From positions 62,001-126,000 of the forward strand of contig NW_024067998.1 of NCBI RefSeq assembly GCF_009389715.1: DNA of 64,000 nt. The letters run 5' to 3'. The translations under genes were made by a program, and so were the position numbers. Of the stretch, positions 2,101 through 62,775 are shown one piece after another (the first letter of the stretch is position 1; each line of letters opens with the position of its first letter). This DNA is from Phoenix dactylifera (lineage: Eukaryota; Streptophyta; Magnoliopsida; Arecales; Arecaceae). The notes under the pieces were generated by a model. That model had not been told where the DNA came from and did not search any database. It saw only the letters and a list, made by a program, of their open reading frames with translations.

Positions 2101-2638
<538 letters not shown>

Positions 2639-2647
2639 TTACTATAA

Positions 2648-5600
2648 AGCTTGTTAAGCGGGGAGTGAGGGAATGGTCCCAATAGATAACCCATGCAGCC
2701 AAAGAGAGTTCTTCAGCAAAAATATTAAGGCCACGTCGTTCACTAAGAGTCTAAGACCCATTAAAAATCATGCATATATTATAGAACTAATGCAGTCATA
2801 AAAATCTAAGGACATAATGCAGTCATAAGGACTTTCGGATCATGTTTCCCACTGCTTGCAATTCTTTCACATATATTCTTATTTTCATTTTATAAGCTTC
2901 AAAGTTGCCTCTTTTCCCGTTCATATATAGGGGAATCATGCTAAGAAAAATAACCTCAATCCTTTTTTCCTATAACAGCAACTTGAAATTGAAAATTGAA
3001 CTGAAAATTTTGAGAATAATGGAAGGTTGGAGATTCAACACACCTCATATATGGAGCATCTACAGAAACACTAGCGAGGATTTGCAGTGGTCTGTGAAGT
3101 CCTCAATGAGGCTGTTCCTCTATAATAGCAAAAGTGTGAGGAGGAAGAGGAAACTTCACCTGTTTTCATGGTGAGAATCTCACACCCTATCTTACCTTCT
3201 AGCTGCTCTTGTAGAAAAGAAACGGGAGTAGTAAGAGATAGCAATCACATCATTCACGTGAGCTCCCATGATTTCGAGTTGCCTTGGTACCGGATGCTTG
3301 CCACCCAAACAAGTTGAGCCAAATTTGTAAGGGTATTTTGATCCTAAAATGCCACTAATAGGCACATGAAAGGGTGTTAGTGAAAAATTTTAAACTAGAA
3401 CCAAGGGAACTCGGATAAAGTCATGAGTGTGGAAGAATAATTTTGTTACAACCTAGGTCCTAAACGTCTTATACATCTCATCATGTCTCTTTTTTTAATT
3501 TGGAACTATGCTACAACGATAGGTTCCATGTTGGACAACAAGACCTCATTTGCCTATGGACCCAATAAAACACAATACTCCTTATTGAGGACTTAATCCA
3601 AGGTACGATATCGATACAAATTTAGCTACAAATTTACTAACCTCCAAAATATGGTAAAATGTCCTATCTTTCAAGTCAAGGGATCATTTGCAAGCAGACC
3701 ACCATGTTCAAACTTATATCCTTGACAGTACTTTTTTGTATGGTGGATTGCCAATATTTACTGTTCGGTATTATAACATACTTGAGTGTTAGTGTGATGT
3801 ATCATCTTTGTGAAGAAGAAACTTCACGAAGTTATTGTCCACTTTAGCAGTCTTGTAAATCATACGTTTACCGATAATTATAAATATATTTCAAGTATTT
3901 AGATATATCTAATTCTCCTGTGGACTCCGTCCATGTAAATAAACCTTCTGGAGTACTCATGGACTTCTTGCTCTATGGCCGATATATGGCACATATCATA
4001 TACTGTTTGTGTAGTCATGGAAGAGGAAAAGCCAATGCATTAATCCATACAATGTTCCCAATTTAAATGCAAATGGCTTTTAAGGTGTATCCTATCTAGC
4101 ACTATTATTAGAGAAAATGGTCATCTCCAATACTATAGTATAGTACAGTAGTGTATCATATTATTATTTAGCATTACATAGTGCTAAATATCATTGTAAT
4201 CATATTATACATATAATACTATATAGTAATATAGTATTACATCATAATATTATAGTGTAATGTATACATTATATATTTTTATTATATTATTATATTATAT
4301 AATATACTGTTTTTTTACACAATAATGTGGTTATGAAGGGTGAAATTGTTCTATCTTATTAAAATCACTCTATCATCCACTAGTTCCCAAGTAACATCCA
4401 AATAAACGAATCTTGCCTTGTCATCATCCAAACACATGAAGAGATTAATTGCAATTACTACGAAATAACACCATATTTTTCCAAATAAAATTAAAATTTA
4501 TATCTGTTTATACCATGTAAATTAGTATTCTTTGGTATAACTTCTTATATCAAGAAACTCATACCCAACACAGAAAAGTTCTGATCTTACACGTGTGCAA
4601 TATTTCTTGGCTCTTGCTTTGCTCCTCCTTTAACATGGGCTCAACACTCGATCAACCAAAATAAAGTCCGGTGGAGATCCGAACCCTACGTATCCGACCC
4701 CACTACGTGGGCCCGGTCGGATCCCACCGACTCTTTTACGCCCCGCTGTGATTCTTCTTGCAGCCGACAATTTTCAAACGCTTCCGATATCCGCCAACTG
4801 TCAAATCCAACGGCCGATTTCCATTTCCAAATAATCCGTCTCTCGAGGAATGGAGCCGTCAAAAATACCGTTAAATTCCCAAGAAGCATCAGCCGTCAAA
4901 TATTACACCTGTCGCACGGCCAGGCTATCACGGAAAGCTCCACCGACTATATGAACACCTGTCGCTGGGCCTCCACGTCCCCTTTTCACCTTGTGCCCAT
5001 TTCCTCCGTCCCTCGCGCTCTCTCTGTGTCTCTCTCTCTGCCCCCCCAACTCCCTCTCTTCCCGATCAAAAAAAAAAAAAAGAAATAAAAGAAAATAATT
5101 GGATCTTTGTTCTATTTTTTCTGTAGATTGAATGGAATCCGATTACATTCTGTCCAGGTAAACTCACTGATTTTATCAGATTTATCGTTTCTAGATATCT
5201 TTTTTTTTTAGTGTAATTGTTTCTAGATATCACCTCCCATTTAGAAAATATTGGCTTGAAATATATTTTTGATTCCTTTATTCCTGTTTTAAATTGCATA
5301 TTTATTGAAAGTTTTAGCCTTTGATCTCTGGTTGTGATTGCGTTTTCACTGGAAAGCATTCCTTGCTTCATGTAAGTAGCCGAAGAAGATGTATATCTCC
5401 TTTATTTCATCGAGAAAACGAGTTTTTGATGGTCTGCTGCCTTGAATGTCATGCATGTATATTATGATTTATTTGTATCTTTTTGAATATAAATACTTGT
5501 GAAATTCATAGGAAAATTATTAAGTTGTGCAGATGGGGAGATGGAAATGTAGTCCTATGCGTTTATATTTTAATTATTTTGGATTAAATTTGGAGGCTGG

Positions 5601-6396
5601 ACTTCAAAATTCTAGCCTATGGATGTGCAAAGCCACTTCAAATTTTAACTCGCCGTTCTCTGTAGGAGAATTAACTGGATTCAGTTCCTCTTTTTATTCC
5701 AATCCAAGCCCATGAATGCTTTATGCCGTTTGCCTTCCGAATTCTGTTGTTTCTTTGAGGCCTCAATCGTGATCGTGATTTAATATGGTGTTGCTTTATA
5801 TTTTTTTTTATTTTTTATATAAAGTATGTGAATATGTGAGATTGTATCTCATATATATTTTTCTCATAACATAGATGGTCATTAAAACAAAGGATTTGAA
5901 AAAATTAAAATGCAACAGGATATGAACTTAGATACAATTGGTTGAGAAAAGAATTTATAACATCAAGATCTGCTAATTAAGTCAAGGCTAGGACATTAAA
6001 GTTTGAGTATGAACTGTATGTTCATTCCCTTCACAGTAACAGCAAGAACATGAACAAAAGAAGCAGAGGTGGGAAAGGGGTTAGAGTGACCACATACCAC
6101 CTTAGAAAACTTGTTAGTAGGGTTAGTTGTTAAGTGTTAGTTCTTTGATCCTAATGTATGAGGGGCTACCTCAATGGACTAATGGATCTATGATGTGTCT
6201 ACTAAAAGAAGAACTACAATGCAGAGAAGGATGGTTTCTTATCAATTTCCTCATTTGATAAGAATTTGCAGTGTTGAGTCTCCCTGTCAAAACACTTTTC
6301 TTCAAATAATCATTAGTATCCAGTAAGTTCTTGTTTATTAAATAAAAGGTATCCATAAATCTATGTTCTCCATACGGATACAACAAAACACTGTAT
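2648..6396. other. Intergenic, no confident gene; possible promoter near 5 kb
   Basis: No coding exon is recognised. 4130-4320 is very AT-rich with many short palindromes. 4980-5075 is a CT-rich stretch followed by an A run; it resembles a plant 5' UTR on the + strand and could be the leader of the gene whose coding part starts at 8424, but I cannot show splicing. Short open frames (for example 2905-3174 and 5527-5715) show no family features. Confidence 0.35.
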
Positions 6397-8070: not shown

Positions 8071-8082
8071 CACTGCATTTCA

Positions 8083-8190
8083 TCTCTTCAGAGACATCTG
8101 ATAAAATTGGAACAATGCAGAGAAGATTAGCATGGCCCCTAAGAAAGGATGACATGCAAAAATCCAGGCGTCTCACCACATTTCTGAAAA
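8083..8190 (+). pseudogene. U6 snRNA-like retropseudogene
   Basis: The core at 8091-8165 matches U6 snRNA as I recall it: GACATCTGATAAAATTGGAA, then CAGAGAAGATTAGCATGGCC, then AAGGATGACATGCA. These include the ACAGAGA-box region, the AGCATGGCCCC block and the AGGATGACA block. The ACAGAGA box itself is altered (TGCAGAGA here), and the 5' stem-loop and 3' tail are diverged. No TATA box at the right distance, no canonical upstream element and no T-run terminator are visible, so a functional gene is unlikely. The 62-codon open frame across it is not a gene. Confidence 0.75.
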
Positions 8191-14543: not shown

Positions 14544-17500
14544 ATGGGATCATTTCAAATGCCTGCAAATTTTCCAAGTTCTGCATTGCCAGAGTCCTCT
14601 TGTGCCTATCTACTCCAAGAATTGAAGGTTAGTTTGTTGTGAAATTTAAGGTTCTTGATCTTTCGAAAAGAATTAAGGTTCTTGGTTGAATACTATGTAC
14701 TTTACTGATTTCTTCTTGCTAAATTTGATGAGCTGCTGGAACTGAATAGCTGATTTGGGATGAGGTTGGGCAAGATCAGCTTGAGCGAGAGAGAGTTCTC
14801 CTTGAACTGGAACAGGAATGTTTGGAAGTTTATAGGAGAAAAGTTGACAGTGCTAATATCTCTAGAGTTCGACTACATCAAGCACTGGCTGATTCAGAAG
14901 CTGAGTTAACTAATCTTCTGCTTTCCCTTGGAGAGCGATCATTACCAGGAAGAGTGAGCTCTAACAACAATGATCTCTATCATATGCATCAAATGCAATA
15001 GATACCATCAAATTAGGACATGTCTTGCTTTACATGTACTAAGTAGTACATATCTTGTACAGCCAGAAAAATTGACAGGGACACTAAAGGAGCAGCTTGA
15101 TTCGATTACTCCTGCCCTTCGAGAAATGCAGATGAGAAAAGAAATCAGGATGAACCAGTTCCGGGAGGTTCAGACACAAATCCAAAGGATTTCATCAGAG
15201 ATTGCAGGTCACTCAGAATATGATAGTGTTGTTGTGAATGAAGGTGATCTCTCACTGAAGAAACTCGAGGAATATCAACATGAATTTCAGAGACTTCACA
15301 AGGAAAAGGTACTTGGAATTAATCTGAAAAAATACTTGTACCCCTCTTAACGTGACATGATTTTTTTTTCCTTTCTTTCTTTCTTTCATTCTGAAAGAAT
15401 GATAGGCTCCGGAAAGTGGAAAAGTACATAAATGAGGTGCATCAGCATGCTGAAACAATGGGGATGGATTCCTCGAAAATCATTACTGATGTTCACCCGA
15501 GCTTATTGCATGGTTCAAGCGGACAGCAATCAAAGAATATTAGTGACACAATTTTGGACAGACTCAAAAGCACAGTACAGCAACTCAAAGATGAGAAGCA
15601 AAAGAGAATGGAAAAGGTGATTTTTTTTACCTTCCCTCCCATGCTTTTCGCCTTATGTGAGCATTCGAGTAACATAGCAACAGGAAGTAAGAAATGAAGA
15701 CAACCATTAATGTTGTATAAGTTACATAGCTTGTAAGCTGCTGAGCTTTGCACAACAAGTATTAATAGTTTATGAAAAGGTAAATGCAAAATCCAAAATA
15801 TTCATATTGTAACAATATGCAACACCATAAAGTATTCATATTTGCTGCCAGTGCAAAATGGCTATAGCCCAGTGGTTGGACCTCTCCAAATGGGTGGATG
15901 CTCTGGGTTTGAATCTTGGAGCTGTTTCCCATGTGTTTAACCCTGTTAAGTCTGCTTCATGGTGCTTCCACCGTTAATCCCCTGGAAGAAGAAGAGAATC
16001 AATTTGTTGTAATTTGCAAGCATCCAAATAAATGGTTGAAAAAAAGTCAGATCAGAAATGTGTGAATCTGGTCACTTTATAGTAATACATAGCATTATGA
16101 AATTGTGATCAGAACTCAGTTAAAAAAACAAACAAATTAAGACAATCAGAACCAAATATCCATAAGAATCCTATAATAGGAATAGAACAAGATCTTTTGC
16201 ATCTGATTTCATATAATTATTAGATGAACCTTAGTATCACCAGAATATTTGTAACATTTTGTAGAATAAACAAGGATCACTTATGTTGACTAAGATTGAA
16301 ATTACGCTCTTTAAAAATCATATTGTAGCTCTTTTTTCACAGAAATGTGGTAAGAATGTTGACACAATGTTTGACTGATCCATGGTCTAAGAAATTTCTT
16401 GAACTGAGATTCTAAATGATATTTCTTATTTTAGATGAGAAAGATACATATCAGGCATTTTAAGGTTCAAGATCATTTTCAAGACAGATTTAATATAATA
16501 GCCGCAGCATTTCAAGGTTGAAGGTTGCATTTGAGATGATTTGGATTGATGTCATACAATGCACAAACTTGAAATTACTGAATTATCAAAAGATGGATTG
16601 AAACAAAATTTTTGTAGCGGAGCACCAATATGATTAATTGTTTAGATTCAAATTCCAAACTAGTTTTTCCAGTCATGAAATTTTTCTTGATCATAACGTT
16701 ACTCACTCACCATTTCCACAATCAGTTAATTGCTGTAGATGCGAATGATAGCACAGTGTGCAATAGTTTCAACTGAAAATTACAGAAACTGCATATTTGC
16801 AGCTTCACAGGCTTGGGAAAGCATTGACAAATTTGTGGAATCTTTTGGATACACCCATGGAGGACCAGCAACCATTTTCTCATATCAAATTTTTTTCATC
16901 ATCAGCCTCAGTAAGTTACACTTTAGGCCCTGGAAGCCTTACCCTCGACATAATCCACCAGGTACAGGCACTTGTCCACATCATAAAACCTGAGGATTAA
17001 GAATATGTTTCAAATCTTCTTTAATAACTGTTTCAGTATTTAGTCTATTCTGGCTGCTTAAATGGCCCAGCTTTGCTTGAAACATAATCCAGGCTGAGTC
17101 TGAAGTAGAGAGATTGGATCAGTTAAAAGCAAGCAAGATGAAAGAGCTATTCTTTAAAAAGCAAATTGAACTCCAGGGCATATGCAAGAAATCTCACATG
17201 GAAGTACCCCCTCAGTCTGAGATGGAAAATATTATGAAACTTATCATATCTGGTGGGCCTCTTGCTTCAATTTTTTTTAATGATTCAAGAATTCTCAATG
17301 TTACTTTCAGTAATCCAAAAAATTTACATGCACTACCTGAAGGTGAGATGGACCATTCTGACCTCCTCATGTGCATGGAAGAGCATATATCTAAAGCAAA
17401 AGAAGAGGCTTGCAGCCGGAAAGACATAATGGAGAAGGTCAACAAGTGGATGGCTTCATGCGAGGAAGAACGCTGGCTGGAAGAGTACAGCAGGGTCATT

Positions 17501-19040
17501 CCTAATCCATCAAAATACATACTTGTCCAGCATTATCCCTGATATACTAAACTCTCATGTCATGTCATTTTGATAAATGAACTGTTTACAGGATGAGAAT
17601 CGTTACTCGGTAAGCAGAGGGGCTCACAAAAACTTGAAACGCGCAGAGCGTGCTAGAATTATAGTCAACAAGATTCCAGGTAAGAATTGATTGTAGTAAA
17701 TCAAGAATGATGATTATACCAAAAAAAAAAATCAAGAATGATGATGCAACATAAACTGATATGATCTAAATGCAGCTTTGGTCGAATCGCTGATGACCAA
17801 GACTAGAATTTGGGAAGAGGAAAGGAAGAAAGTTTTCTTGTATGATGAGGTCAGACACAAAACCCTTTTGAGAAACATACTCTGGATTTTACCCTTTTGT
17901 TAAGATCATGCATACAACTTGCTCGTGACAACCCATGAAGCATCTTTTGTATCTCATTGTGAAGTTCAGATATTCTGGTGTCAAGCTAAAACTTAAATGC
18001 AACAGAAACTCAGACAAAAAAAATTATGAATTTTTATTATGGTTACCTCCATTTTTCAACTATACAGCATGAAGGTTTAAGCCTTAAAAAGATTTAAAAG
18101 CTCCAAAGTTCTGTTTTTATACAGCCCAAGATATGCATTTGTTTAAATAAATTGTTAAAACAACACAGCCAACATTATCATGTTGGTTAAACCATGTACT
18201 AGGATCAATATAATTCCACTAAAGGGAAATCACTATTTGAAAAACCAGTAAGTAAAAACTGCATCAGTATGTCTAGCTACATATCATTTTGTGCGATAAC
18301 ATATAGCAATTATTAAGTAATTTTCTGTGCCGGGTGGCTGAGAAAGGAATCAAGGATCTGGGGCAGACAATATACTCCTTAAATGTAGACTTCTTGAGTC
18401 CAAATATCAATTCCATTTGATTTCCAAAAAAGAACAGTTCAAATTATTTTTTTCAGCATCCTCCTAATTCCACAACATCAACCAATCTTTCTGTGACTTC
18501 GCAGGCGCCTCTTTTGGCTATGCTTCAGCAATACACTTTGATGAGACAGGAAAAGGAAGAAGAGAAGTACAGGCAAAGAGTAAGTTTTTCATGAGGAACA
18601 AAAGAAAATTGGAAGGTCCTATGAGGATCCTTCATAGGACAGACTGGTAATTGTAACGGTATCAAATCATGAATACCACTTTCATAATATTACACACAAA
18701 TAATATGATTTTGGTACAGGAGAGAAAGAAGGTACAGGCTCAGGTTGCAGCACAGCAGGACAAGTTTAGCTCAAGGACAAACACAAGCGCCAGTCCTCTT
18801 TCAAACAGGAGCTTAAATAGCAGTTTCAGCAGTTATTCCCCTTCATACAGGAGGCTGTCTATCACGAACCAGCATCAAAGATCGAAAATTAATTCTGCAA
18901 CACAAGGACCAAATTTCAACAAAATGGGTCGGAAGAAACAGGTGGAGAGCATGTTGGTTAAGTACAACCATGTCCGTAAATTTAGAACAGAGACAGCATC
19001 AGAAATCTCTACCACAATTTCAGGCCCATCATCTCCATGA
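14544..19040 (+). CDS. MAP65: MAP65 family microtubule-bundling protein (11 exons)
   Basis: The MAP65/Ase1/PRC1 family cross-links antiparallel microtubules in interphase arrays, spindle and phragmoplast. Eleven exons with GT-AG introns join in frame: 14544-14627, 14750-14953, 15063-15308, 15398-15616, 16803-16961, 17093-17252, 17343-17494, 17592-17679, 17776-17849, 18505-18579 and 18720-19040. The product is 593 residues, within the family's usual 550-700. Hallmarks are an N-terminal dimerising coiled coil (LLQELKLIWDEVG, then [11 protein letters not shown]), [16 protein letters not shown], and the microtubule-binding part with [37 protein letters not shown] and [15 protein letters not shown]. 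The C-terminal tail after residue about 487 is basic and Ser-rich, like regulatory tails phosphorylated in the family. Start choice: ATG 14544 precedes the conserved LLQEL helix. I could not assign the paralogue. Confidence 0.93.
15857..15990 (+). mobile_element. tRNA-derived SINE in MAP65 intron 4
   Basis: An A box, TATAGCCCAGTGGTTGG (about 15863-15879), is followed by a B box, GGGTTTGAATCTTGG (about 15904-15918). That is the internal Pol III promoter of a tRNA-derived SINE. It lies sense to the host gene inside the 1.2-kb intron 15617-16802. The 3' end is uncertain; a GAAGAAGAAG stretch follows at about 15984. Confidence 0.6.
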
Positions 19041-20318: not shown

Positions 20319-23300
20319 TTACAACTTTTCTGTGCATAAGTATTCATCATTTGGAGACATTGCAACCTGCAATTCACAATCAAATGTATCATTTAATCCT
20401 AGGACCAAGGGACCAAAGAAACGAATCATCATCAATAAAAGGCCACAGCAGATATAATTTACTGCAATAAAGAAAGAGATTACGAATGTACGGTATTAAC
20501 ACATCTTGTATGGTTGATGATATGCCTGACACAAGGATGACCGAGGACAACATCCCACATTGCCATGCTATATATATATTAATTCATTAAGATCAGTTAT
20601 AAGCATGATGGAGAATAGAGAAAAATTTTAAGGAAATGAATTACTCCCCATAACCGCTCACGGTAACCAATACAGGCTCCCTTTGAAGCCACTGAGTGAT
20701 CACCCTCATCAACATGACTGCACACAATCTAAAAATAAATAAATAAAACATATCAGTGAATATGACAAACAGATGTCATAAGACATGTACAACTCATTGC
20801 ACAACATAAAACCATCCATAAACAAAAAGCAGTTATATAACAATAAAATAAAATAAAAAAGTTACCAATATAGGGATTTATGATTAATAAGCAATAAGCT
20901 ATATTATGTCCATTAAAGGTTGGCTTTATAAATTAAACCCTTCGCAATTTTCATGCATCAACAGCTAAATCTTCTGCAAAGGCAAGCTTCTCCAAATCCT
21001 CATAAGTTTCATGCCGTTCCACTTTTGAATATTTCAATTTTACAAACCAAGTCATTCCCTTGTAAGCACTCCTTTAATTGTTCTTGCTCTGTTCATGCTT
21101 AATGCTTGCAATTCTCAAGCTTCATAATACTGACTCACTATGAGATCATACAATACCTGATTGTCATTGTGCATGTCCATGTCATATTTGTTAGGCATTC
21201 AACAAGATGTCCAACAATAAAATGTTCATGCCTATGGTGTATAGCCCATTATTCTATTGCTATTGAAAGTGTTGTCCATTAAAGATCACTCAATGATAAT
21301 CAAGGTTTACTGTACCAAGCCATAAAACTTGGTACCAAGCATACTGTACCATATGGTAAGATAACGGTATAGCATCAAGGCTCGATATAGCACTATGCTG
21401 ACACATAGTATAGCCACTATCTCACCTTCAACGGTGTATCGTGTTTCCATAGAGGTGTACCGTATAGTAGGATACTAGCATTGTGCCCAGTATCAACGTA
21501 GCATATCTTGATGAGATTGCCTACCAAACAGATAAGGACTGTGGACTCAGATCATAGAAGTCATTGACTATAGGTTAATAATTTTATTTGTTTGTTTAAC
21601 ATGAAAGAGCATGTTTATCATTTCTTCTTCAATCTTTACGGGACACCAAAGTACTACATATTTTAAATGATAATCCAATGTATTTGAAGGCACGTTTTTA
21701 TATAGAAATATAAAGAGAAGAACCAGCTGGATCAAGATTCGCCATCTCGATACCGAACCCCGTACTGGTACCATCCTATTATAATGTTGGTATGCAGTAT
21801 GGTGTGAGATCATGAAGCATGCTTAGTGTCGGTATGGTATAAGACTATATACCTATACGATCAGTAGCGACCAATACGGCATACTTTGAGCTGGACTTTT
21901 TGTGGCTCTAAGCATTTAACAATTGTATGAGTCTCAAATGATGGTGCAAGGCCCAAAAGTAGAATGAACAAGGAGTAGAGAAAGTAGTAATGGAAGGAGA
22001 GGAAGGGGAAAGAGGAAAGGAATGCATAGGCACAATGCCCATAATATTCTCCCCTTTAATCTTAGATAAACCAAAATGCCCACAAGTGGGAGAACCAACC
22101 ACTTTAAATGAATGTTATGCATGATCCGGGCAATCAACCAGGCCCAAATCCATACAATTGCAGCCCATATATAAAAAGATATACCTAACGCACTCTTACA
22201 CCTAAAATTATTCAAGTTTTTGATCGATGTCCTTCATTTTTTTAATAGCATGCAACAGAAGATTTAAAATACATGTATAATAATGTAAGTCCATCTTTCT
22301 CCTATAAAGCCATTTCTTACATATCAAACTCAAGAAGACAATTTTTGTTATGGTACTTAATGTTCAAAATAAATTAGAGAACTACTTGTTGTACTATCGG
22401 TACCATACTATACCGGCATGTATCGTACCGTATCAGGACATACCATACCAGTATGCAGTCTCATACCATATGGACACTCAGTATGTCTCGTCGTCTCATA
22501 CTGTACCACATACCAACACTATAATAGTCCGGTACCGATACCAGTCCGGTACCGAGAGAGCGAATCTTGGATGAAACCATCATCTTTTATTAGCTTTTGA
22601 CCCAGTAATATTAGTAAATAAGTACTTTGACCAATTTAGTTTGAATCAATGATATGAAGATAGATTCGCATCAGATTACCAAATGGTTGATGCCATCGGG
22701 CTTCTTTGAAAAGATAGAAGTTCAATGGTATAAATAGTATGCAACAAAGTTAGAAACTCACCCTGGCAGTTGATTAGCATGTTATGCAGTAGGCATTTGC
22801 TCAAACAATGTAGAGTAGGGCTGGAAGTGGGCTCGGGCCGGCCCGAAGCCCATCGGGCCGGGCTGCCTGCGGGCCGGGCTATGGGTTAAAAACTTAAGCC
22901 CAATTCTATTTCGGGCCGGGCTCGGGCTGAAATCTTAAGCCCAATTCTATTTCGGGCCGGGCTCGGGTTTTCCATTGGCCCGGCCCGGGCCCAGCCCGAG
23001 CCCGGGCCCAATGCGAGCCTGAACGAGATCGAAGACGGGCAGACGGCCCGAGCCAGTCGCGAGTCGCGACTTAGGGGGATTTTTGGGGTTTTGTAACTTT
23101 GTTTGACGAGTCGTGAACTCGTGATTGAACTCGTGAAACCCTAGGCGAGAGCGGAGAGCCGCGAGACCGAGACGCGGAGAGCCGGAGACGGTGGTCCAGT
23201 GGAGGCGTGGAGGCTCGTCGTCGTCTAGGGTTTCTCACCAGTCGTCGTCGGCGGCAGCGGCTTGTCGAGTGCAGAGGCGAGACGAGAGCAGTGGAGGCTC

Positions 23301-26300
23301 GTCGTCGTCGGCTAGGGTTTCTCCGCTCCCTTCTCGGATCGTCGTCGTCGCCGACTCACCGAGTGCCAATCGTCTCGGATCGTCGCCCTCATCTCCCTTC
23401 TCCTCCAGGCTCCACCCCCTCACCGCCAAAATTGATCGTCACTTGAGGTGCATCGGCTCTAGTCGGCTCTCAGATTAGGGTTTTTTGGATAATCTATTCT
23501 CTCTTGCCTCTTGGTGCTTTACCTTGTTCTATTCTCTCGAGTCTTGGTGCTTCACCGGCCCCGATCCTCTTCTCCTCCTTCCTCTGTGGCGCTGACCGAC
23601 CTGCCGAGAAAGAGGTAATTACTTATCCTCTTCTCCTCCTTCCTCTGTGGACTGTGGTGCCTAAAATATTATTTTTTTACTAATCTATTGCTTGCTCCCC
23701 TTCTCGAAAACAAAAGGGGGAGGCTTTAAAAGTTAGTAGAGCTCATTTCATCTGCCAAATATCACAAATAAGAGGATCATGTGCTTTTGAGGTGGTTGTG
23801 CTGCCATAAATCCACAAGTTGTGTTTAGTGCATTTTAGACATTTACTGTTATTTCTACAATTCTACTAAGTTTGTGGTTTTAATTAGGTTTGTGGTTTTG
23901 AATAGGTAATTAAAAGTGTGATGTGTAATGCCTGATGCTATTGGCTTGCTTTTCTTGTTGTTTGCCTCAGACACACTGAACTCAATCTTAATTTGTTGAT
24001 CAGTGATCACTGATCCATAGTCTCGCTGATTCCTTTCCTCTTTATTTTCTCCTCTCTTTATCTGATTTGAAGGTTTCAGAAAGTCCTTATTATCTTTCCA
24101 ACCTTAACAACCTGTAAGCCTAGGAACTAAATAATATATCTTCCATTCCAGAAGCTGCTCATATCTCATCTGTTTATAAGACTGTAACAAACAGGGGATG
24201 ATTCATTGAGATAGTAATGACATGACTATATCTCCAACTTTGTCAATAACAAGAGTTTTAAATTTTCGTACATATCTGATGCTATAGGTTAAATTTGTGA
24301 TATTTATTTTGTTATTTGGGCAGATTATTTTTACTAATGTCTCATTCTAAAGTTGGTGAAAATGAGACTGTTGAAGATTTAAGGAATGAGGATGATAGAA
24401 ATGAAGATACTGCTGAAAATATTTGTGACAATTCTTCTAAAAAAAGATCTTGGGTATGGAATCACTTTATCGAGGAAAAAAATTCTAAAGGGTCAATAGC
24501 TAAGTGCAAATATTGTAAAAAAGTTTTAAGTGGGAGCACTAAAGGAGGAACGAGTCATCTAAAACGCCATCTTGAAAATGTTTGCAAGAGGTATCAAAAG
24601 AATTCGACTAATCAGTTGCTCTTACTACCAAGTTCAAAAGATCCGATAAAGTGTTTCAAATTCAATCAAGAAGAGAGTAGAAAAATTCTTGCAAAATTTA
24701 TCATATGTGCTGAGCTTCCATTTCGTATTGTTGAGCACACTGTTTTTCTGGATTTTATGAGATCTCTTCAGCCATTATTCAAACTTATGGGTCGTAAGAC
24801 TGTAAAACATGATTGTATGGCTTTGTATCAAGAAGAGAGGAAAAAATTGCATGATGTATTCAAGAACCTAAGTTCTCGAGTCAGTTTCACTACTGATATT
24901 TGGACATCAAATCAGAAAATCGGTTATATTTCTTTCACAGCACATTATATTGATTCTGACTTTACTCTGCATAAGAAGATTATTAGTTTCAAGAAACTTC
25001 CATACCCTCACACCAGCTTTGCAATTGAAGATGCTGTAAAAAAATGTCTTGTTGAATGGGAATTGGATTATAAAATATGTGCTATTACTTTGGATAATTG
25101 CAGCACAAATGATGCTGTAATGAGAAGGCTCCGAGATCACTTTTGTGCTTCAATGTTGTTTAGTGGGGAGTACAGTCATATTAGATGTTGTGCACATATA
25201 TTAAATATTATGGTTCAGGATGGAATGAAAATCATTCATGAAGCTATTGAATGTATAAGAGAAATTGTTAGATATGTCTCTGCATCCCCATCTCGAATGC
25301 AAGCATTTAATGAAATTCTACAGCATATGAGACTTCCTGCTAGAAAAGGACTCACTTTGGATGTTCCTACAAGATGGAATTCTACTTATGAAATGTTGCA
25401 TGATGCACTTGGTTATAAAGATGCTCTTATTAGATATGCAACTGAGCATTCATGTGTATGCCCCACCAATGATGAATGGAAAAAGGCTTCTATAATTCTT
25501 AAATTTTTAGAAGCCTTTCTTGATGCCACTAAAGTATTTTCTGGTTGTAAGTATCCCACATCCAATTTATACCTAAAAGAAGTTTGGGGAATTAGGGCTT
25601 TGTTGATGGATGAAAGTATCGATACTGATGAAACAGTGAAGCAATTAACAAATGAGATGCTAAAGAAGTTTAACAAATATTGGTCTCAGTGCAATAATTT
25701 GTTGGTAATTGCTTCTATTTTGGATCCCAGATCAAAGTTGATATTTGTAGAATTTTGTTATCAAAAGGCATTTGAGTTGGAGGAGTGCAAGAAAAAGATT
25801 GATGATATTCGTGCTTGTCTTTTTAAATTGTATAATGAGTATGTAGATGCAACAAGAATGCACCCCTCTATGAGTTCAAGTGAGCGAACATCTAATTTTG
25901 GTGGACAAGGTGATATAAGTTCAGTTTCTTCCCAAAAAAAATTTGGTATGGACTTTGCTCAATTTAGAAGTCAGAGTTCTTCAAAACGCCCTAAGAGATC
26001 CGAGTTGGATAGTTATTTGGATGATGATGTACTTCCTGATTTGGAGAATAAAGAGTTTGACATCTTGGCTTGGTGGAAGAGCAATGCAGCAGTCTATCCT
26101 ATACTATCAAGAATGGCTCGAGATGTTCTAGCTATTCCAGTCTCCACTGTTTCATCTGAGTCAGCATTCAGCACTGGTGGTAGAGTTGTGGATCAGTATC
26201 GAAGCTCTTTGAGCCCTTCTACCGTAGAAGCCTTAGTGTGTACCCAAGATTGGCTTCGTGAACAATATGATGAAGGTATATAAATCTTTTAAATTTATCT

Positions 26301-29300
26301 AATATTTTTTATTTGCTTATTGTACTTATAATTTAAACATTTATGATTGATTTGTGTGTTAACAGTTGCAAATTGCTCGAGTTCTGTAACGTTGAATGTA
26401 GATGACGACACCCTGGACTCCTGGAGTGGGCAATTTGGGAGAACTGAATGACGATACCCTCATCAGATCTAGTTCATACCTAAAGTATCAAGTATGAAGT
26501 ATGTTTGTGGATGGAGTATTTTCATGTGGATCATGGTTATTTGTTGCAAAATTTTATGAGAGTTGTATGTTTTTGAACTGCAGGCTTGAAGCTGACTTCA
26601 GGGGGTTTCTCTATTACATGGATATGATGAATATATTATTGTGCAGGGAACAACGACTTCAGGCCGATGATTTTTTTTATCCTCTTGTTTTTGATGGAAT
26701 CCTTTTGTTTGGTTTCAGTTGTATCGTTGCAGTTGGTTGCATGGAATGAATTTTTTTGCAAGTTATCTTCAAACTATCAGATGCTATTTTGTTAATGATC
26801 TGTCTGATTGCCTACTTGGTCTATCTTATATTTGATTTAAGTTGAATAGGTTGTTTGCTTGTCGACATTTTTGCTTGTATGTTTACAAGAGCAGCATATG
26901 GAACCACTCAGGGGAATGACATTATAAAGCTGAATTTTGATCCGTATATCTACTGTTTCTTTGTGGTTCTTTAAAGGTAAGTGCACTATTATCCATTGCT
27001 GGGTTGCTTCAGTGACTTTATGATGAACCATGGAACCACTCAAGAGTCTCACTTTGTAGAGCTATCATGGTAAGCAGGTAGCCAGGTAGAGATATCAGGG
27101 TCGGCTTGTTATTTATTTTCTTCCTTGCTTTGCAGGCTGTATTGCTTATTGCATCGTACCTTGATGTTCCTCTACGATATCCTTTGCGCTTGGGAGGCTC
27201 ACGTTCATATATTCATGACTATGCTCCTTCAGTTGAGTCTATATCATCAGATTACAAAGCCGTCTGAATTCTATCAATTGATATTTTTCCTTATTCAATT
27301 AAGGTTCCATGATAAAAGAGTATTTCAAGATTACATTTTCATATATGCTTCATCTTTCTAACTGATTCATGCATAATAAAATCTGGTGGCCAAGTGGCAC
27401 TTATGGTTCAGTACTAAGATGGTACAATTTTCATCAGAAGTTAATTTTTATTTCCCTACCTCTCCTATCCCTCTTCCTCTACTCAATTTTCTGATAGGGT
27501 ATTATTGGTTAAGCAGTTGAAATCGAAGGTTGGTGAAGTGATGTCCTCTCCTGCCATCACTCTGTCACCTGACAAGACAGTTTTAGGTAAGTTTGTAACT
27601 GAACCTTCTTTCTTTATGAACATAATTGCGTATGTGATTCCATAAAATTTGGGAAATACTCTTGTTTCTTGGCTGCAATATCGTGCAGATGCTGCAGCTT
27701 TGATGCTTAAGATGAAGATCCATAGGGTACCAATCGTAAATGAAAAACAGCAAGTTGTAGGTAAGAGATATATACATAAAGACTAAACTGTTCTCTGGGG
27801 ATCTTGTCAATGAATATTTACTGATATGATCTGAAATGTGTTTAAACAGGAATGGTTTCTCGAACAGACATATTCCAGGCACTGGAAACCCAGGTGGTAT
27901 AAGCTCTCTGCTTCATAAGAATGCTTATCTGCTGTGTAAATATGAAAATAAGTGTAAATATGAAAAATAAGTTAAAGAAGCACATAAAACAGGGCAGCTA
28001 TGACTTTGTGACTCCTAATTGCATATTGTATGATATATTCTCTTCATTTCTTTGTGCAGCTTTTAAGCATAAAGCATCTGATATTTTATATGCATTTGTA
28101 TTTTGCCAATCACATTTTGTTTTCGTTTGGTAGGATTTAGAGCAGCTTTTAAACTACATTGGAGCTGACCCAAACGGGCTGGCCGGGCTCGGGATCGGGC
28201 CGGGCTGGGGATCGGGCCGGGCTCGGGATCGGGCTGGCCCAAACGAGCTGGCCCAAACGGGCCGGCCCAGGTTAGGGCCCAATTGGGCCGGCCCAAATGG
28301 GCTCGGGCCGGGCTCGGGCCTTGTTCCTTAAAAATTTTTCGGGCTCCGGCCCGGCCCGAAGCCCGGAAAAAAAATTCGGGCCGGGCTTGAGTAGGGGTTT
28401 GGCCCAACCCGGCCCGGCCCACTTCCAGCCCTAATGTAGAGGCCTAAAGAAACGCATATCATTGCTTTGACAAGATGCATCTGAAGAAACCTTCCCACAG
28501 TTTATTGGTAGGTATTATTTGATAGAGGCAACAAAATAGGTATCGCAACCACTAAATGAAACAGATGTCACCTGCAATAAAGAAATATAAATACACATCA
28601 AATAAAACTTAAAAGCTGCAAAAAAAAGAGAGATCAAAATAAAATAAAAGATAAAACCAAAAATTAAACAAAAGGCAAAATTAGAAGTTCATTTTGGAGC
28701 ATCACTATATTATCAGGCAAAATGCAGCTAGGATTTCTCGGAATTTGCCAAATTCACACCAATCTAAAACCAAAAAGTTGTCATACGCTGAACTTCTAGG
28801 ATTGGGGGAGGGGGATGAGGATAAGTAGTTAAAAGGATGCAACAATGAGTGTTATTAGACAACTATGCAAACCATACTCCTAACATATTACATTTGATTC
28901 TCAAGTAATTTACGCCAATGGTGTAACTCATACACATAGGACAACCATGAAAATGGGCAGCCTAGTGCACAAGGCTCCTACTATTATAGGATCTGGGGAG
29001 GGTCAAATATACACAACCTTACCACCATGCATGGAGAGGCTATTTCCATGTTTCGAACCCGTGACATCCAGGTCGCAATAGAACAACTTTACTATTATGC
29101 CAAGGCTAACCCGCAAAGGATGACCATATGTATGCAATCCAAACATATAAAGTACAATTATGTTACACCTCTATCCCATAGTGGATCAAGGATGAAAATT
29201 TGTAATTTAGATAGTGTGAACATAGTATCCAAATCTTATTAAACAGAGTAAAGGATACCTAATAAACTAAATATATGGAACAATAAGGTACGTGGGAAGT

Positions 29301-32300
29301 CATGGCTGAAAATGTGGAAGTCAATCACATATTGTCATCTATTTGTCACATCAAAATGTACAGTAAGGAGATGACAGGAAAATGAAGGCAACAACCATGT
29401 TAATTGCAAGGCATCAAAGTCAGATAATGAAAATAGAAATGTTAGTCATCACGAGAAGCATAACCTTGAAAATTGAAAATAGAACAAGAAATATGCCATA
29501 GTAAAGCAAAGAGCAATGGGATAGGCCTCAAAATTCACAATTCAACCGTCATAGAGAAACTTGATATTTCAGAACAGTACACAACATAAGTAAACCTTGT
29601 TTACACGAGGAACAAGATTCTAATTATATGTTCATTCACCAAAGAGTTCAAAGCCTGTCAAACACATACGCTGGCAATCATGGATGTTGGACAAGCTAAT
29701 AATAAAGTTAAGAATCTTAATAGTAAAAACTAGAAATACAGACAAATTGTCACAATCATCGTCTATGAAGGATGGGCAAGGGATGGTGATAAGAGTTATA
29801 AGAACCAATCGAGGAAAAAAGAATAAGAAAATAGGGATAGACAAAGTATTCAAAGATCGCAAAATGCATCAACAGTGAACCTAATTAACAGATAGATGCT
29901 TGGGAAGCAGTATAGAAGTATAGACCATAAGGATTTTGAGCAAAGCACAAGCATGACAATAAAGGTAAGGCCAAGGATAAGACAAAGCTGGAGAATTAGG
30001 AGAATCAGAATAATTTTAAAAGTAAATGGCAAATATCATATAAGGTTACAAACTCGGTGTAATTTGATACTTATGCATTTTACTCATAGATATTTATAGT
30101 CATATTAGATACATGGTATGCTGTACCGTACCGTACCGGACAGTACCGGGCATACCATACCGTACCGATGGCGTACCGCATACCGTACCGTACCGACACT
30201 ATGATAGTGTGGCACCGATATGGAGTCCGGTACCGGTACGGCGAACCTTGATTAGATAGGAAAAACCATGACTTTATTGAGTAGTACCTTGAATTAATAA
30301 TTTGCAGTTTTGGACTTTCATTAAAATACCAAATCCTACATCAAATGATTCCAAAAAAATGCATTTTTTTTAAAATGTGAAACATGAGTTTTCTTAACTC
30401 GCTTTATTTGTCAATTGTTTTTAGCAACAAAACTACAAACGTCAAAATTCAAGATGCCCAACCGATACCCAAGATTGGAACCTTGATCTCAGTCAACTAA
30501 ACTATCCTACAATCAGCATAACTAAGATTCGCCGAACCGATATCGGGGAGGTTGTACCGGCCAATGACCGGTTCAATTTAGTATGGGTCCGTACCATGCC
30601 ACTCTAAGGTGTACCGAAAATAAGGAGAGGAAGGGGAAGAGGGAGAAAAAGAGAGAGAAAGAGGGAGAGGGAGAGGGAGAGGGAGAGGGAGGAAAGGGGA
30701 GGGCTGAGGGTTAAGTCCTTACCCTAACCCTAACCCTAGCCCTAGCAGAGTGAGTGAGAGCAAGCGAGAAAGAGGGAGGGAAGGAGGAAGGGGAGGGTCA
30801 AGAGAAACCCTAACCCCAACCTTAGCAAAGCACGAGAGAGAGAGAGAGGAAGAAGGGAGGGAAAGAGGGAGAGGGGGAGACACTTATCAGCAAGGACGAC
30901 GAAACCGTCTCGTACCGCCCAATTCGGGCACACCGAGCCGTACCGGCGGCAGACCGAGATGATTCCAAACTTCAAATCAAGAAACCGGCGAAGGAGGGGG
31001 AGAGAGAGAAGAGAAAAAGAGAGAGAGGGGGGAGGGAGAGGGCAATGGTGAGCGAGGGCTGCCAAAACAAGGCCGAGGGAGGGGGAGAGAGGGCTTTCAA
31101 AGCCCTCCCTCCATGCATCAGAACAGGGGCGGAGCTCTAGTTTCAAAAGAAACTAGGGCTTCAGCTTCTTTTAATGTCCTTTTTAAATTTTTTTAAGTAA
31201 AATCGATAGCAACTACCGACTTCGCTTATCATGTTTTAAAAAAAAATTAAGTGAAGTCAACATGCTAACTTCAAAAATTCAAAAAAATATAAAAAGGGGC
31301 CAAAGCCCCTGTTTCCTTTCGAAACAGAGGCTCTACCCCTATTCCGATGTATGGAGGAGAGAAGGCTTCGACTTTGGCCCTATTTCGCCACCCTCTCCCT
31401 TTCTCTCCCTCCCTTCCTCCCTCTCCCTCTCTTCTTCCTTCTCTCTCCCCCCTTCTACCCTCTCTCTCCCTCCCTTATTCCCTCTCTCCTTTATTCCCTC
31501 TCTCCCTCTTTTCTAATCTTTCATTCTCCCTCTCCCACTCCCTCGCTTCTCTCTCTCTACCACGCTCTCCGCTCTCTCCCTCCCTTCCTCCCAATCCCAG
31601 CCTCTCTCTTTTCCTCTCTCCTTTTCTCTCTCCCCCTCCATGGCCGATTTCCCTGCGGCACGGCACAAAGACACCATACCACCGGCCTATCGGCACAAGT
31701 GCCGATTCGATACTTCAAACCTTGCTTACCACAATGCCATGGGGAGGGAAAGCAACATCGATCAAGTAGGGGGGTCAATCAAACCAGGCTTCTCTCCTGA
31801 GCTACCTCTACCATTTTCTAAGCCTTCCATTTCCAAATTTACTAAAGACTAATCTCAGCAGTTGTAGCTTTAACCAAACTTTTGCGCCTCAAGCATCATC
31901 TACTATGCATCAATCCAACTCCAACAAAATTCTTTACCTATTTTCCTCAAGTTTGAATGCCTGCAGTCATAAGACATAACTCAAAAAGTACCTGAGTATG
32001 GTCAGAAAAATAAAATCTTACCAGTTATGATCCCAGTAAATTGATGTTTAAGAAAATAGTCCAAAAATAATAATAAAATTTCAGCCAAGTATTTTACAGA
32101 AAAGACAAACCACCTCGTAACCAGATCCCACCGAGAAATGATTAATTGCAGCACAACTCTGGATATCAAATAAGCCATCAGTCCCATCCCCAGCACCTAC
32201 ACAAAATAGCATCCAACTAGTTAGTTGTCTTGCAAACCTGAAATTCGTACAAATTAATGTCAACCAAGCATCAGAGAACAGATTACGCCTGTTATTATAG

Positions 32301-60349: not shown

Positions 60350-62775
60350 TTCAGTCTCTCTCCCCCTCACTAAAGCTTTCCCCAGGAATCTTGGCTGCTC
60401 GTCATCTCCTCTCTCGTAAACCTCTATCCACGGGAGGAGAAAACCGTTTTCCCCCTTGTTTCCGAAGGGTTAGGGTACAAAGTCTCTTTCTCCGTCTTCG
60501 TCTCTGCTGATGCCTCTAGTTCTTTGACGGATTGAAGTAGCAGGTGATGGTGTTGGTTTTGATCTTCCGAGCGTCTGATTTGGGTGCTTGGATGGTTTTT
60601 CTATCATGATTTCTGCTTGCATTTCGGGAATGATTTAATAAGTTCTGGTTGTGATTTCGTTCCCTGTTTCTAGGGTTTCCACTAGTGACTTTGGTTTTTC
60701 AAACAGTATTTTGGAATATTCTTTAATAGTGATCCGAATTTGTAAAGTTCTACAGTTTTACTTGGAATTTATTATATGTTAGTGTGATTGAAGTAGGGTA
60801 AATTGTTTTATATTCATATTTTTTTTCATTGATTTTTCCCTTACAAATTGTCGTGTGATTTTAGGAGCGCTGTACAAAGTTTATTGATAATACTAATGTG
60901 AATCAGCAAGCACTGTCCCAGCTTCTCAAAGGTAGGTTCATGGATGAAATCCATTATCTGCAAATATCAGGGAATAGGAACAGCGAGATGGGATGGGGTT
61001 TGAAGGTTAGCGATTGATGGTTAATACCAATCTTTTCTGTTATTCGACACAGAAACATCGAAACACTATCATCTTACAAAGCTCAAACAGACACTTATCG
61101 GTCAAAAGTGTTGCTTCTTGTAAAGCTTGAGCAAGTTGTAGCATCAGTTAGAAGAGTAGGAATGCACTTTCAAAAGACAGAGGTAAGGCTTACAGGAAGG
61201 CTGACAATGTGGTGCAGGTTAGTATCTCGCCAATAACAAGATGTATAAGATCGATGGAGGAAAGATGGACTAGCTGATGTATGCATGTGTAAGTATGTAG
61301 GTGAGAGAGATTAGACAATGTACAAGAGTAGATTTGTTGATGAAGATAACTAGTCCCCTGTAGGAGGGGAAGTTATTTATATTGATGTCCTTGAAGAACT
61401 TGGAAACACCTGGGTGGAGATGCAAAATAGTCCAACATCCTGACTATGAGATGCCAAGACATAACAAGCTGAGCTATGCTGTGCCAGCTGGTGGCTAGAT
61501 GAAGTTTCCCGAACAAGTTCTCCCCAAATCAGCTTCAGGCATGAATCACAAAATAGTAGTTCATTATCTATTTTCAGATATGTCAAGATCAAATAATGTT
61601 AAGGAGATAGAACAAATTACGACCATCGAATGTAAAACTGTCCTTAATATTATTTTCTACCACCCTCCCTAACTTTCTCTCCTTCTCTGCCCGAACCCCT
61701 AAAACTCCTGCATTTCCTTCCCTCGTTCACGCTCTATGGGTGCTCATGGAAATATAATGTTATAAACCCTCGTTGATTCATCAAATCAATTACATGGTTT
61801 CCATATCATAAGACTGCTTTATACCTAAACTTGACATGACCGACGCGGTTAGGACCACTTTGCAGTTTTTATAGGTCGTCACTAGGTCATAGAACATTCT
61901 GGAGCTTTGTTAAGTCATGTCATTATATTGCCTAATAAAATACATGGATGTGTTTAGTCTTTTTTATTTATACTTTTTTGGTCTTCTTAAATCTGATTTA
62001 CAATGCGCTAGCCGTTGTGTTGTTTGCTATAGGTCATAACTGTTATATTGCATGGCACTGGTTTTTTAAACCCTTGAAAGGGCCAGGCTTGGTGAATCCA
62101 AAATCAAGTTTCCCATTTGTTTACACTTTTCTCTAGATCACTTCATATGTATAAAACCGCTGAAGCATAGCTCAGAGTTTTGAGTCTAATATTCTTTCTA
62201 TTTAATTTGGGTGATTTTTATGTGTAGTGATTCCCACCTGTTTCAAATAATTTTTAACCAATTTTTATTTTGCTTGTGCGTTTCATGATTTATATCTTAA
62301 TGATAAAGGGTTTTTTGTGGAATTTTCTTTTCCTAATGATATCAATTTTACTTGCATTATTATTACATTAAGCATTATCATCATTTGGCCATCACCCTTT
62401 GTATCCTTGTTCCAGATAGTGCTATATTTCCTCTGATTCTAGGAGATATGTAGAATGTTCATCTGAATCTTAACTTTAACTAACTGTCTTCCCATTAAAT
62501 TGGGCTTGTTTTTGTGGACATGGTGTAACCTACCAAAGTTTGAGAACAGTTTAGAACCATCTTTTATCTGTATATGTCAGGTATCTAGAAATTGTGCTGG
62601 AGAGAAGGTAGGTAGAACAACTCAATTGATTATGTAGTTTATGCTCGTTCTTGTAGGGAAAGATGCTTTAACAAGCCTGATTCTTGGTAAAATTTTGGAC
62701 AAAGTGGGAGGACCATTGAAGTTTGAGATTGGGAATGCTTATTTGTCGAAGAGATTGGTCGTGTTACAATCCTAA
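60350..62775 (+). CDS. Start of an unidentified spliced gene, tentative
   Basis: 60350-60540 looks like a CT-rich plant 5' leader ending at a donor (GTAGCAG|GTGATG, near 60542). Two later blocks have splice borders and join in frame: 60865-60931 (ERCTKFIDNTNVNQQALSQL) and 62657-62775 (GKDALTSLILGKILDKVGGP, then LKFEIGNAYLSKR). The joined stretch has a normal protein look with amphipathic helices, but I do not recognise the family and see no start codon. The second block meets a stop at 62773 unless a further splice exists. It could also be a damaged or non-coding copy. Confidence 0.3.

Follow-up and report, generated by a model that had tools for sequence, protein, structure and literature searches.

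A hAT element of Phoenix dactylifera with an open transposase and pieces of two host genes in its 3' region

The element, its ends, and its transposase

The window analyzed here is a 64,000-nucleotide stretch of Phoenix dactylifera DNA, positions 62,001 to 126,000 of the forward strand of contig NW_024067998.1 (assembly GCF_009389715.1). Positions 22816 to 28433 of the window are one hAT element with intact ends, a transposase, and host-gene cargo in its 3' region (Table 1). The cargo consists of pieces of a VPS38-like gene and of a gene encoding a CBS domain. An earlier note, made from the letters of the window, had described a hAT with coding capacity and pieces of two host genes inside it. 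That description held, because the 648-amino-acid transposase frame is intact and the parents of both fragments were located, on C3 and C2 (contigs and loci are cited here by C and L labels).

The 17-bp identical ends and the perfect 8-bp target-site duplication (TSD) noted earlier were both read directly. The terminus TAGGGCTGGAAGTGGGC at 22816 has its exact inverse ending at 28433, and the TSD, ATGTAGAG, is perfect on both sides. A scan of the whole window for inverted 17-mers 0.5 to 15 kb apart and flanked by a perfect 8-bp repeat returned this single pair, as did the scan with 11-mers, and 20 Markov-1 resamples scanned in the same way gave 0 pairs with either word length. The subterminal repeats are GC-rich, with copies of GGGCCGGGCT only near the two ends, and the combination of short terminal inverted repeats (TIRs) with subterminal motifs is that of hAT elements. 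The element is a recently mobile plant hAT.

The transposase frame is unbroken, as had been noted, and has Pfam matches to three domains: zf-BED (E 2.7e-10), hAT-like RNase-H (E 4.2e-29), and dimerization (E 6.5e-34). Its best solved relative is Hermes (E 2.2e-19). What we take to be the first D and the final E of the catalytic D-D-E align with Hermes; the second D is not cleanly aligned. The frame is intact at six of the nine loci at which it was read (the window, L026, L027, L029, L035, and L036), a count that leaves out C14, C13, C256, C107, and C11:0.63. Between the window transposase and the five other intact copies (8 to 21 changes), the ratio of nonsynonymous to synonymous differences (pN/pS) is 0.42 to 0.67, which would be weak evidence of purifying constraint. 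The open frame, the intact ends, and near-identical copies elsewhere make it likely that the element is autonomous; the hAT family may still be active.

Upstream of the transposase, the leader (23025-24229) differs strongly between subfamilies when compared with L029 1385-2991 and L035r 2465-3740, with transposases that are about 99% alike. The 5' side has therefore been remodeled as well.

Table 1. Features of the element, in window coordinates
Feature	Position	Strand	Remarks
Left TSD, ATGTAGAG	22808..22815		copy at 28434-28441
Left TIR	22816..22832	+	17 bp, same as right one
Left subterminal repeats	22833..23010		GGGCCGGGCT, CGGGCCGG, GGCTCGGG; within the window confined to the element
5' leader, largely native	23025..24229	+	partial matches at 88-99%: C659, upstream of transposase match, and C262
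138-bp leader piece	23679..23816		matches C7:773131-773268, 2 mismatches/138; not counted as gene
hAT transposase open reading frame	24337..26283	+	648 aa, intact; BED, RNase-H, dimerization
Predicted last transposase exon	26366..26451	+	alternative 28-aa tail; donor after 26275, acceptor TTAACAG
Stub of first VPS38 capture	26885..26900	+	parent L033 from ~5322; native 3' sequence stops at 26884
Second VPS38 bite	26898..27038	+	L033 4343-4483, joined at common ATG; 2 substitutions/140
VPS38 piece	27039..27253	+	L033 5035-5242, 1 substitution/203; parent 4484-5034 missing
VPS38 exon within preceding piece	from 27136	+	acceptor TTTGCAG
CBS-domain gene fragment	27250..28055	+	C2:17.93 Mb (L034); replaces inner VPS38; left junction shares GATT
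CBS exon 1 (predicted)	27498..27586	+	Pfam CBS
CBS exon 2 (predicted)	27689..27760	+	parent's frame from donor after 26275
CBS exon 3 (predicted)	27850..27893	+	same phase as exon 2: parent's frame from donor after 26275
8-bp filler GCAGCTTT	28056..28063		CBS/VPS38 boundary, by-eye reading
Last VPS38 remnant	28064..28165	+	L033 from 5887, 1 substitution/102; exon start at 28134, cut by subterminal repeats
Right subterminal repeats	28166..28416		same motifs as left: GGGCCGGGCT, CGGGCCGG, GGCTCGGG
Right TIR	28417..28433	-
Right TSD, ATGTAGAG	28434..28441

The captured pieces and their parent genes

The earlier note had proposed a search of the source genome for parent genes and sibling elements. 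In the assembly (773 Mb, 2,391 contigs) the VPS38 parent, the CBS parent, and siblings were all found. The VPS38 pieces at 26898-27253 and 28064-28165 differ by 0.5 to 1.4% (substitutions) from a C3 gene near 17.09 Mb, the locus designated L033 (C3:17089500-17099400). The VPS38/UVRAG-like pieces that had been recognized at 27136 and 28134 could thus be matched to a gene, but the VPS38-derived part starts at 26885 rather than 27136 because introns are included, and the peptide at 28134 belongs to the last remnant.

A PDB search with the VPS38 peptide gave UVRAG as its best match at an E value of 0.19. Chance similarity was rejected as an explanation of this weak match because the parent locus was found, which alone shows that the piece is a host-gene fragment. 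Which family that gene belongs to is a separate question. The cargo peptide had no Pfam match, the pieces tried had no Pfam match to UVRAG, and a PDB search with another L033 exon did not find UVRAG. The parent reads NYIGAESLGPRHVLANLKELV, which we take to be VPS38-like, and L033 is likely a member of the VPS38/UVRAG family. When the assembled L033 is aligned with the element copies, single-base gaps are frequent, with 17 gap columns in 27039-27253 alone. These gaps are either assembly errors or signs of a decaying gene; the exon in the element remains in frame.

The CBS piece (27250-28055) matches the L034 gene in one contiguous stretch, with 6 substitutions in 801 aligned bases, and sits inside the VPS38 piece in place of parent positions 5243-5886. 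The three-exon CBS fragment with good splice sites that had been described was borne out by this contiguous match and by Pfam: the spliced exons match CBS with an E value of 1.6e-17 (64 bits, cut-off 24), and the splice sites look intact. All VPS38 and CBS pieces lie on the transposase strand, as had also been read.

Both parents are real genes: collinearity extends for about 7 kb between L033 and its paralogue L032, and beyond the captured stretch between L034 and its paralogue L037. Because each parent is collinear with a paralogue past the captured stretch, the direction of transfer was from gene to transposon. The cargo keeps introns; therefore, DNA was copied, and mRNA was rejected as the source.

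Copies, order of gains, and possible mechanism

With 40 of 112 candidates scored, the genome has at least 41 transposase matches at 94 to 100%. The VPS38 cargo of this capture is present at 16 loci with distinct 3' flanks: the window, C2:5.70 Mb, C182, C1563, C4:25.97, C4:10.73, C1:12.18, C231, C11:20.79, C10:5.80, C107, C11:0.63, C14:4.34, C256, C13:11.78, and C43. No match was found between these flanks over the 400 bp compared (177 bp for L039). C2004 (L024) shares the TSD and flank of the window locus and was left out as its allele; its TSD is one base off at the left end. Two further loci, L060 and L061, were left out because the exact 3' end was not found for either; for the same reason, the match between these two in the flank comparison is an artifact. 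They are hAT 3' parts in which a shorter VPS38 piece (L033 5552/5662-5745) is joined to the subterminal region. A full-length transposase match is present at 14 of the 16 loci, the transposase being lost in C4:25.97 and truncated in C43. Perfect TSDs flank all eight transposase-bearing loci at which both ends were read (the window, L026, L027, L029, L030, L031, L035, and L036); L025 and L028 show no left end in the stretch examined.

The CBS cargo is full in the window element and its allele, at C2:5.70 Mb, and in C182, and partial in C1563. The copies on C2 and C182 that carry both VPS38 and CBS are flanked by different perfect TSDs. The cargo was therefore gained within the transposon lineage and not at the window locus. 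Capture at the present locus after insertion was rejected, since other loci have this cargo too.

Relatives from before the capture also survive. L051 (allele L053), L054, and L056 are 98 to 99% like the window element in the common part but lack VPS38; after the position equivalent to 26884 they continue with 456 to 466 bp of native sequence and then the right subterminal region. The more distant L044, L045, and L046 (94 to 98% in the main matched block) have the 3' end and also lack VPS38. L043 and L055, which show no 3' end in the stretch examined, were excluded from this evidence. L045 has the same native 3' sequence as L051, L054, and L056; therefore, the ancestral state is to lack VPS38, and the cargo was gained.

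The copies show in what order the gains came: VPS38, then a second VPS38 bite, then CBS. In the first state, the native stretch has given way to L033 5322-6656 (L039, L040, L041, L042, L047, and L052, each with later deletions or additions). In the second, the sequence switches 16 bases into the VPS38 piece, at a common ATG, to L033 4343 onward. This state was read in sequence in the window, L025, L026, L029, and L035 and detected by probe in L027, L030, L031, and L036; L028 lacks the left part of the VPS38 cargo. In the window type, a VPS38 portion was lost at 27038/27039 with no base shared, CBS entered at a common GATT and exited through the 8-bp filler, and the right VPS38 portion was lost at a common TGA. 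Read by eye, the six junctions of the window element share T, ATG, GATT, or TGA at four, nothing at one, and have the filler at one. The first right VPS38 junction in the siblings, also by eye, shares CC. According to the earlier note, siblings without the exons, and exons inserted later as separate events, would count against capture by the element. Siblings do lack the exons, and the gains of VPS38 and CBS were distinct events, but they took place inside the transposon lineage rather than at this locus.

These junctions also bear on whether a hAT captured anything at all. A separate gene-carrying element such as a Pack-MULE or Helitron, or repeated nested insertions, might have entered an ordinary hAT, and the position of CBS inside VPS38 sequence is what nesting would give. 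Nesting does occur in one sibling, L039, which has a solo-LTR-like insertion (LTR, long terminal repeat) between 5-bp repeats. However, about 460 bp of native sequence gave way to the first VPS38 piece and CBS replaces VPS38 5243-5886, whereas simple insertions delete no target. The fragments are contiguous genomic stretches of their parents, and by eye the VPS38 and CBS junctions show no inverted ends or target repeats, although Helitron and MULE ends were not searched for systematically. Nested insertion was rejected on the replacement of target sequence and the lack of inserted-element ends seen by eye, and we consider it very unlikely. The insertion in L039 lies at 1341-2325, within that sibling's VPS38 cargo, and contains GAGTCGACTCGAG repeats; its positions 1357-2309 had been a candidate for a further capture, rejected because they run from TGTTGG to CCAACA between GATGT repeats.

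Sister lineages carry pieces of other genes. L040 and L042 (C256 and C13) are mosaics of an aldo-keto reductase cluster (C16), a phospholipase D locus (C9), a C6 gene without a name, and an enolase locus (C17), and L047 (C43) has pieces of aldo-keto reductase and phospholipase D. L035 and L036 combine part of a gene for an AMP-binding enzyme (C3:5.88 Mb) with a 78-bp piece of the enolase locus, and L025 adds C6-gene and enolase-locus pieces to CBS. The names aldo-keto reductase, phospholipase D, enolase, and AMP-binding come from Pfam; the AMP-binding gene is presumably an acyl-CoA synthetase. The C6 gene had no Pfam match and its PDB search gave nothing useful, and no exon was identified in the enolase-locus piece. 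Several aldo-keto reductase source copies lie near one another at C16:4483849-4642239, six of them at 89 to 96% over the same part; one is the closest match to the captured piece. In addition, two complete elements of 1.6 kb, L062 and L063, are flanked by perfect TSDs and carry AMP-binding-gene and enolase-locus pieces without a transposase. They are ordinary Pack-hATs of the same lineage.

Counting VPS38 and CBS, all seven assigned sources are in the sense orientation relative to the transposase (exact two-sided binomial P of 0.016). The set is small and its copies were chosen by following cargo, not by a census, so the orientation is suggestive only. One explanation for it is that the cargo is no passenger: VPS38 and CBS exons might be joined by splicing to the transcript of the transposase, or serve as decoys or regulators of their parents, and sense cargo would persist for that reason. 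The intact-looking captured splice sites fit such a role, and the donor after 26275 would lead into CBS exons 2 and 3 in the frame used by the parent, which makes a transposase-CBS fusion transcript possible. That donor does not reach the VPS38 exon or CBS exon 1 in frame (weaker upstream GT sites would), and its nearest acceptor (26366) yields an ordinary tail. Because they follow the stop codon of the transposase, the captured exons are untranslated by default. Furthermore, cargo has been repeatedly deleted and replaced among copies, and the sources are not only few and picked through their cargo but include the enolase-locus piece with no identified exon. A function for the cargo is improbable on this evidence, and we infer that the cargo is a passenger.

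We hold with considerable confidence that this is a young, coding-competent, Ac-like hAT family whose 3' region is a cargo bay, most likely filled by template-switching repair, with transposition afterwards. Where this region was broken, or gap repair in it was interrupted, unlinked genes would have been copied in with template switching, the first fill replacing about 460 bp of native 3' sequence with the VPS38 piece. The carrier retained both transposase and ends, and it moved. Its bay was then remodeled repeatedly, with the second VPS38 bite, internal deletions, and the CBS piece in the window lineage and other genes in sister lineages, and some descendants lost the transposase to become short Pack-hATs. 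Repair of this kind is the probable mechanism; it fits because sequence was replaced rather than inserted, introns were kept, most junctions have shared bases or filler, and the sources lie on several contigs.

A bolder extension is possible but doubtful. The element might be autonomous apart from a 3' region that serves as a capture bay again and again. Only sense pieces would survive there, because the transposase transcript can splice or tolerate them, whereas antisense ones would lead to silencing of the element itself or of an essential host gene; the short Pack-hATs would be late, transposase-less offspring. We give hardly any credence to the neighboring-insertion model proposed for Pack-CACTA, in which two nearby hAT copies trap gene DNA and move as one. 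It is a proposed route for Pack-TYPE elements in the available text of a survey of these elements (PMC8903248), but here short internal pieces of about seven loci lie in the middle of the 3' region of elements with the transposase and both ends intact. Moreover, 9.9 kb of sequence from each of L032, L033, L034, and L037 contained no hAT end with 3 or fewer mismatches.

Several observations weigh against repair-driven capture by an active family. The shared bases at junctions number 1 to 4 and may be chance matches. In a tree of 720 bp the VPS38 carriers are not resolved as one clade; its supports are low, and it is too weak for dating captures. L035 and L036 have one lineage's deletion and another lineage's cargo, and therefore copies seem to have recombined. 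The transposase frame is broken at three of the nine loci read (L025, L030, and L031), and in the allele L024 it is broken by small indels, with the left end displaced in the end scan. The pN/pS ratio is 0.85 to 0.90 between the intact transposases of L029 and L035/L036 and exceeds 1 when L029 is compared with L030 or L031, both broken. Between L035 and L036 there are 3 nonsynonymous changes and 0 synonymous ones. Constraint on the transposase is therefore weak or patchy.

The deletion shared by L035, L036, L040, L042, and L047 is 161 bp long (window 26475-26635), and the cargo and the left VPS38 junction differ between L035/L036 and L040/L042/L047. Elsewhere in the window, there is a U6 spliceosomal RNA match at 8082-8185 (77.4 bits), a short tandem repeat rich in GTACC at 30123-30196, and, at 14958-18900, open reading frames that we take to resemble exons of a MAP65/PRC1-type gene.

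Relation to known gene-carrying transposons

The comparisons below refer to the available portions of the cited texts. The maize elements Ds2 and Ds-l4 are hATs with intron-containing gene fragments from unlinked loci, as is the element here, and errors in the repair of excision breaks were suggested as their origin (PMC3260210). Such fragments were described as rare for hAT (2 Ds2, 9 Ds-l4), and their carriers are nonautonomous, whereas most carriers in the present family retain the transposase. Pack-TYPE hATs of maize and rice have hAT ends, an 8-bp TSD, and captured coding DNA (PMC8903248), a description that fits L062 and L063. Pack-TYPE elements are nonautonomous by definition, and the survey pipeline classes any transposase match as autonomous (PMC8903248). 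The window element has host-gene fragments between hAT ends, as Pack-TYPE elements do, but also has a transposase; L062 and L063 have none. Labeling every transposase-bearing element autonomous is a blind spot of surveys that leaves such carriers uncounted.

Among animal Pack-TIRs, for which gap filling and FoSTeST involve template switching, hAT is the commonest source superfamily, and microhomology of 1 to 36 bp (median 2) occurs at one or both breakpoints of 67.6% (PMC8277862). Four multicopy cases were reported there; capture here is both multicopy and serial. Fungal hATs with histone H3 are multicopy and join a transposase domain to a host gene, as here, but their cargo is intronless and came from a transcript or retrocopy (PMC6710886), whereas introns are kept here. 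Tgm-Express1 of soybean, with five gene fragments, likewise has several intron-bearing pieces in one TIR element, where they are spliced into chimeric transcripts; in contrast to the present case, it is a CACTA element within an intron of a host gene (PMC1947982). The available text of a 2026 review of plant gene capture has no occurrence of the term hAT (PMC13317346).

Among the closest known systems is Hatvine-6 of grapevine, in which the transposase and TIRs are common to the copies and the remaining sequence is variable and often matches genic introns and exons (PMC2528002). The same was found here: transposase and TIRs are held in common and the genic region varies among copies. The window element belongs to an already known kind because Hatvine-6 already joins a common transposase with variable genic sequence. 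Hatvine-6 has 35 copies with >90% transposase, 17 of them with potentially functional open reading frames, and is tabulated with a 13-bp TIR and a TSD of 9 (PMC2528002), compared with 17 and 8 bp here. Thus, the earlier judgment that a transposase-bearing hAT with gene pieces would be unusual is met by a precedent, and it is the completeness of the record that is less usual. It runs from relatives without the cargo through stepwise gains to Pack-hATs as end products, with several carriers that remain coding-competent and seven sources that all share one orientation. The route by which gene pieces enter cut-and-paste transposons is still disputed because the intermediate steps are usually lost. 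Here the siblings from before the capture, the first and later captures, the parent genes, and the end products without transposase survive in one genome at about 1 to 2% divergence, so that the order of gains, the junctions, and the orientation can be read. Those details and pre-capture siblings are not among the ones reported in the available text on Hatvine-6 (PMC2528002).

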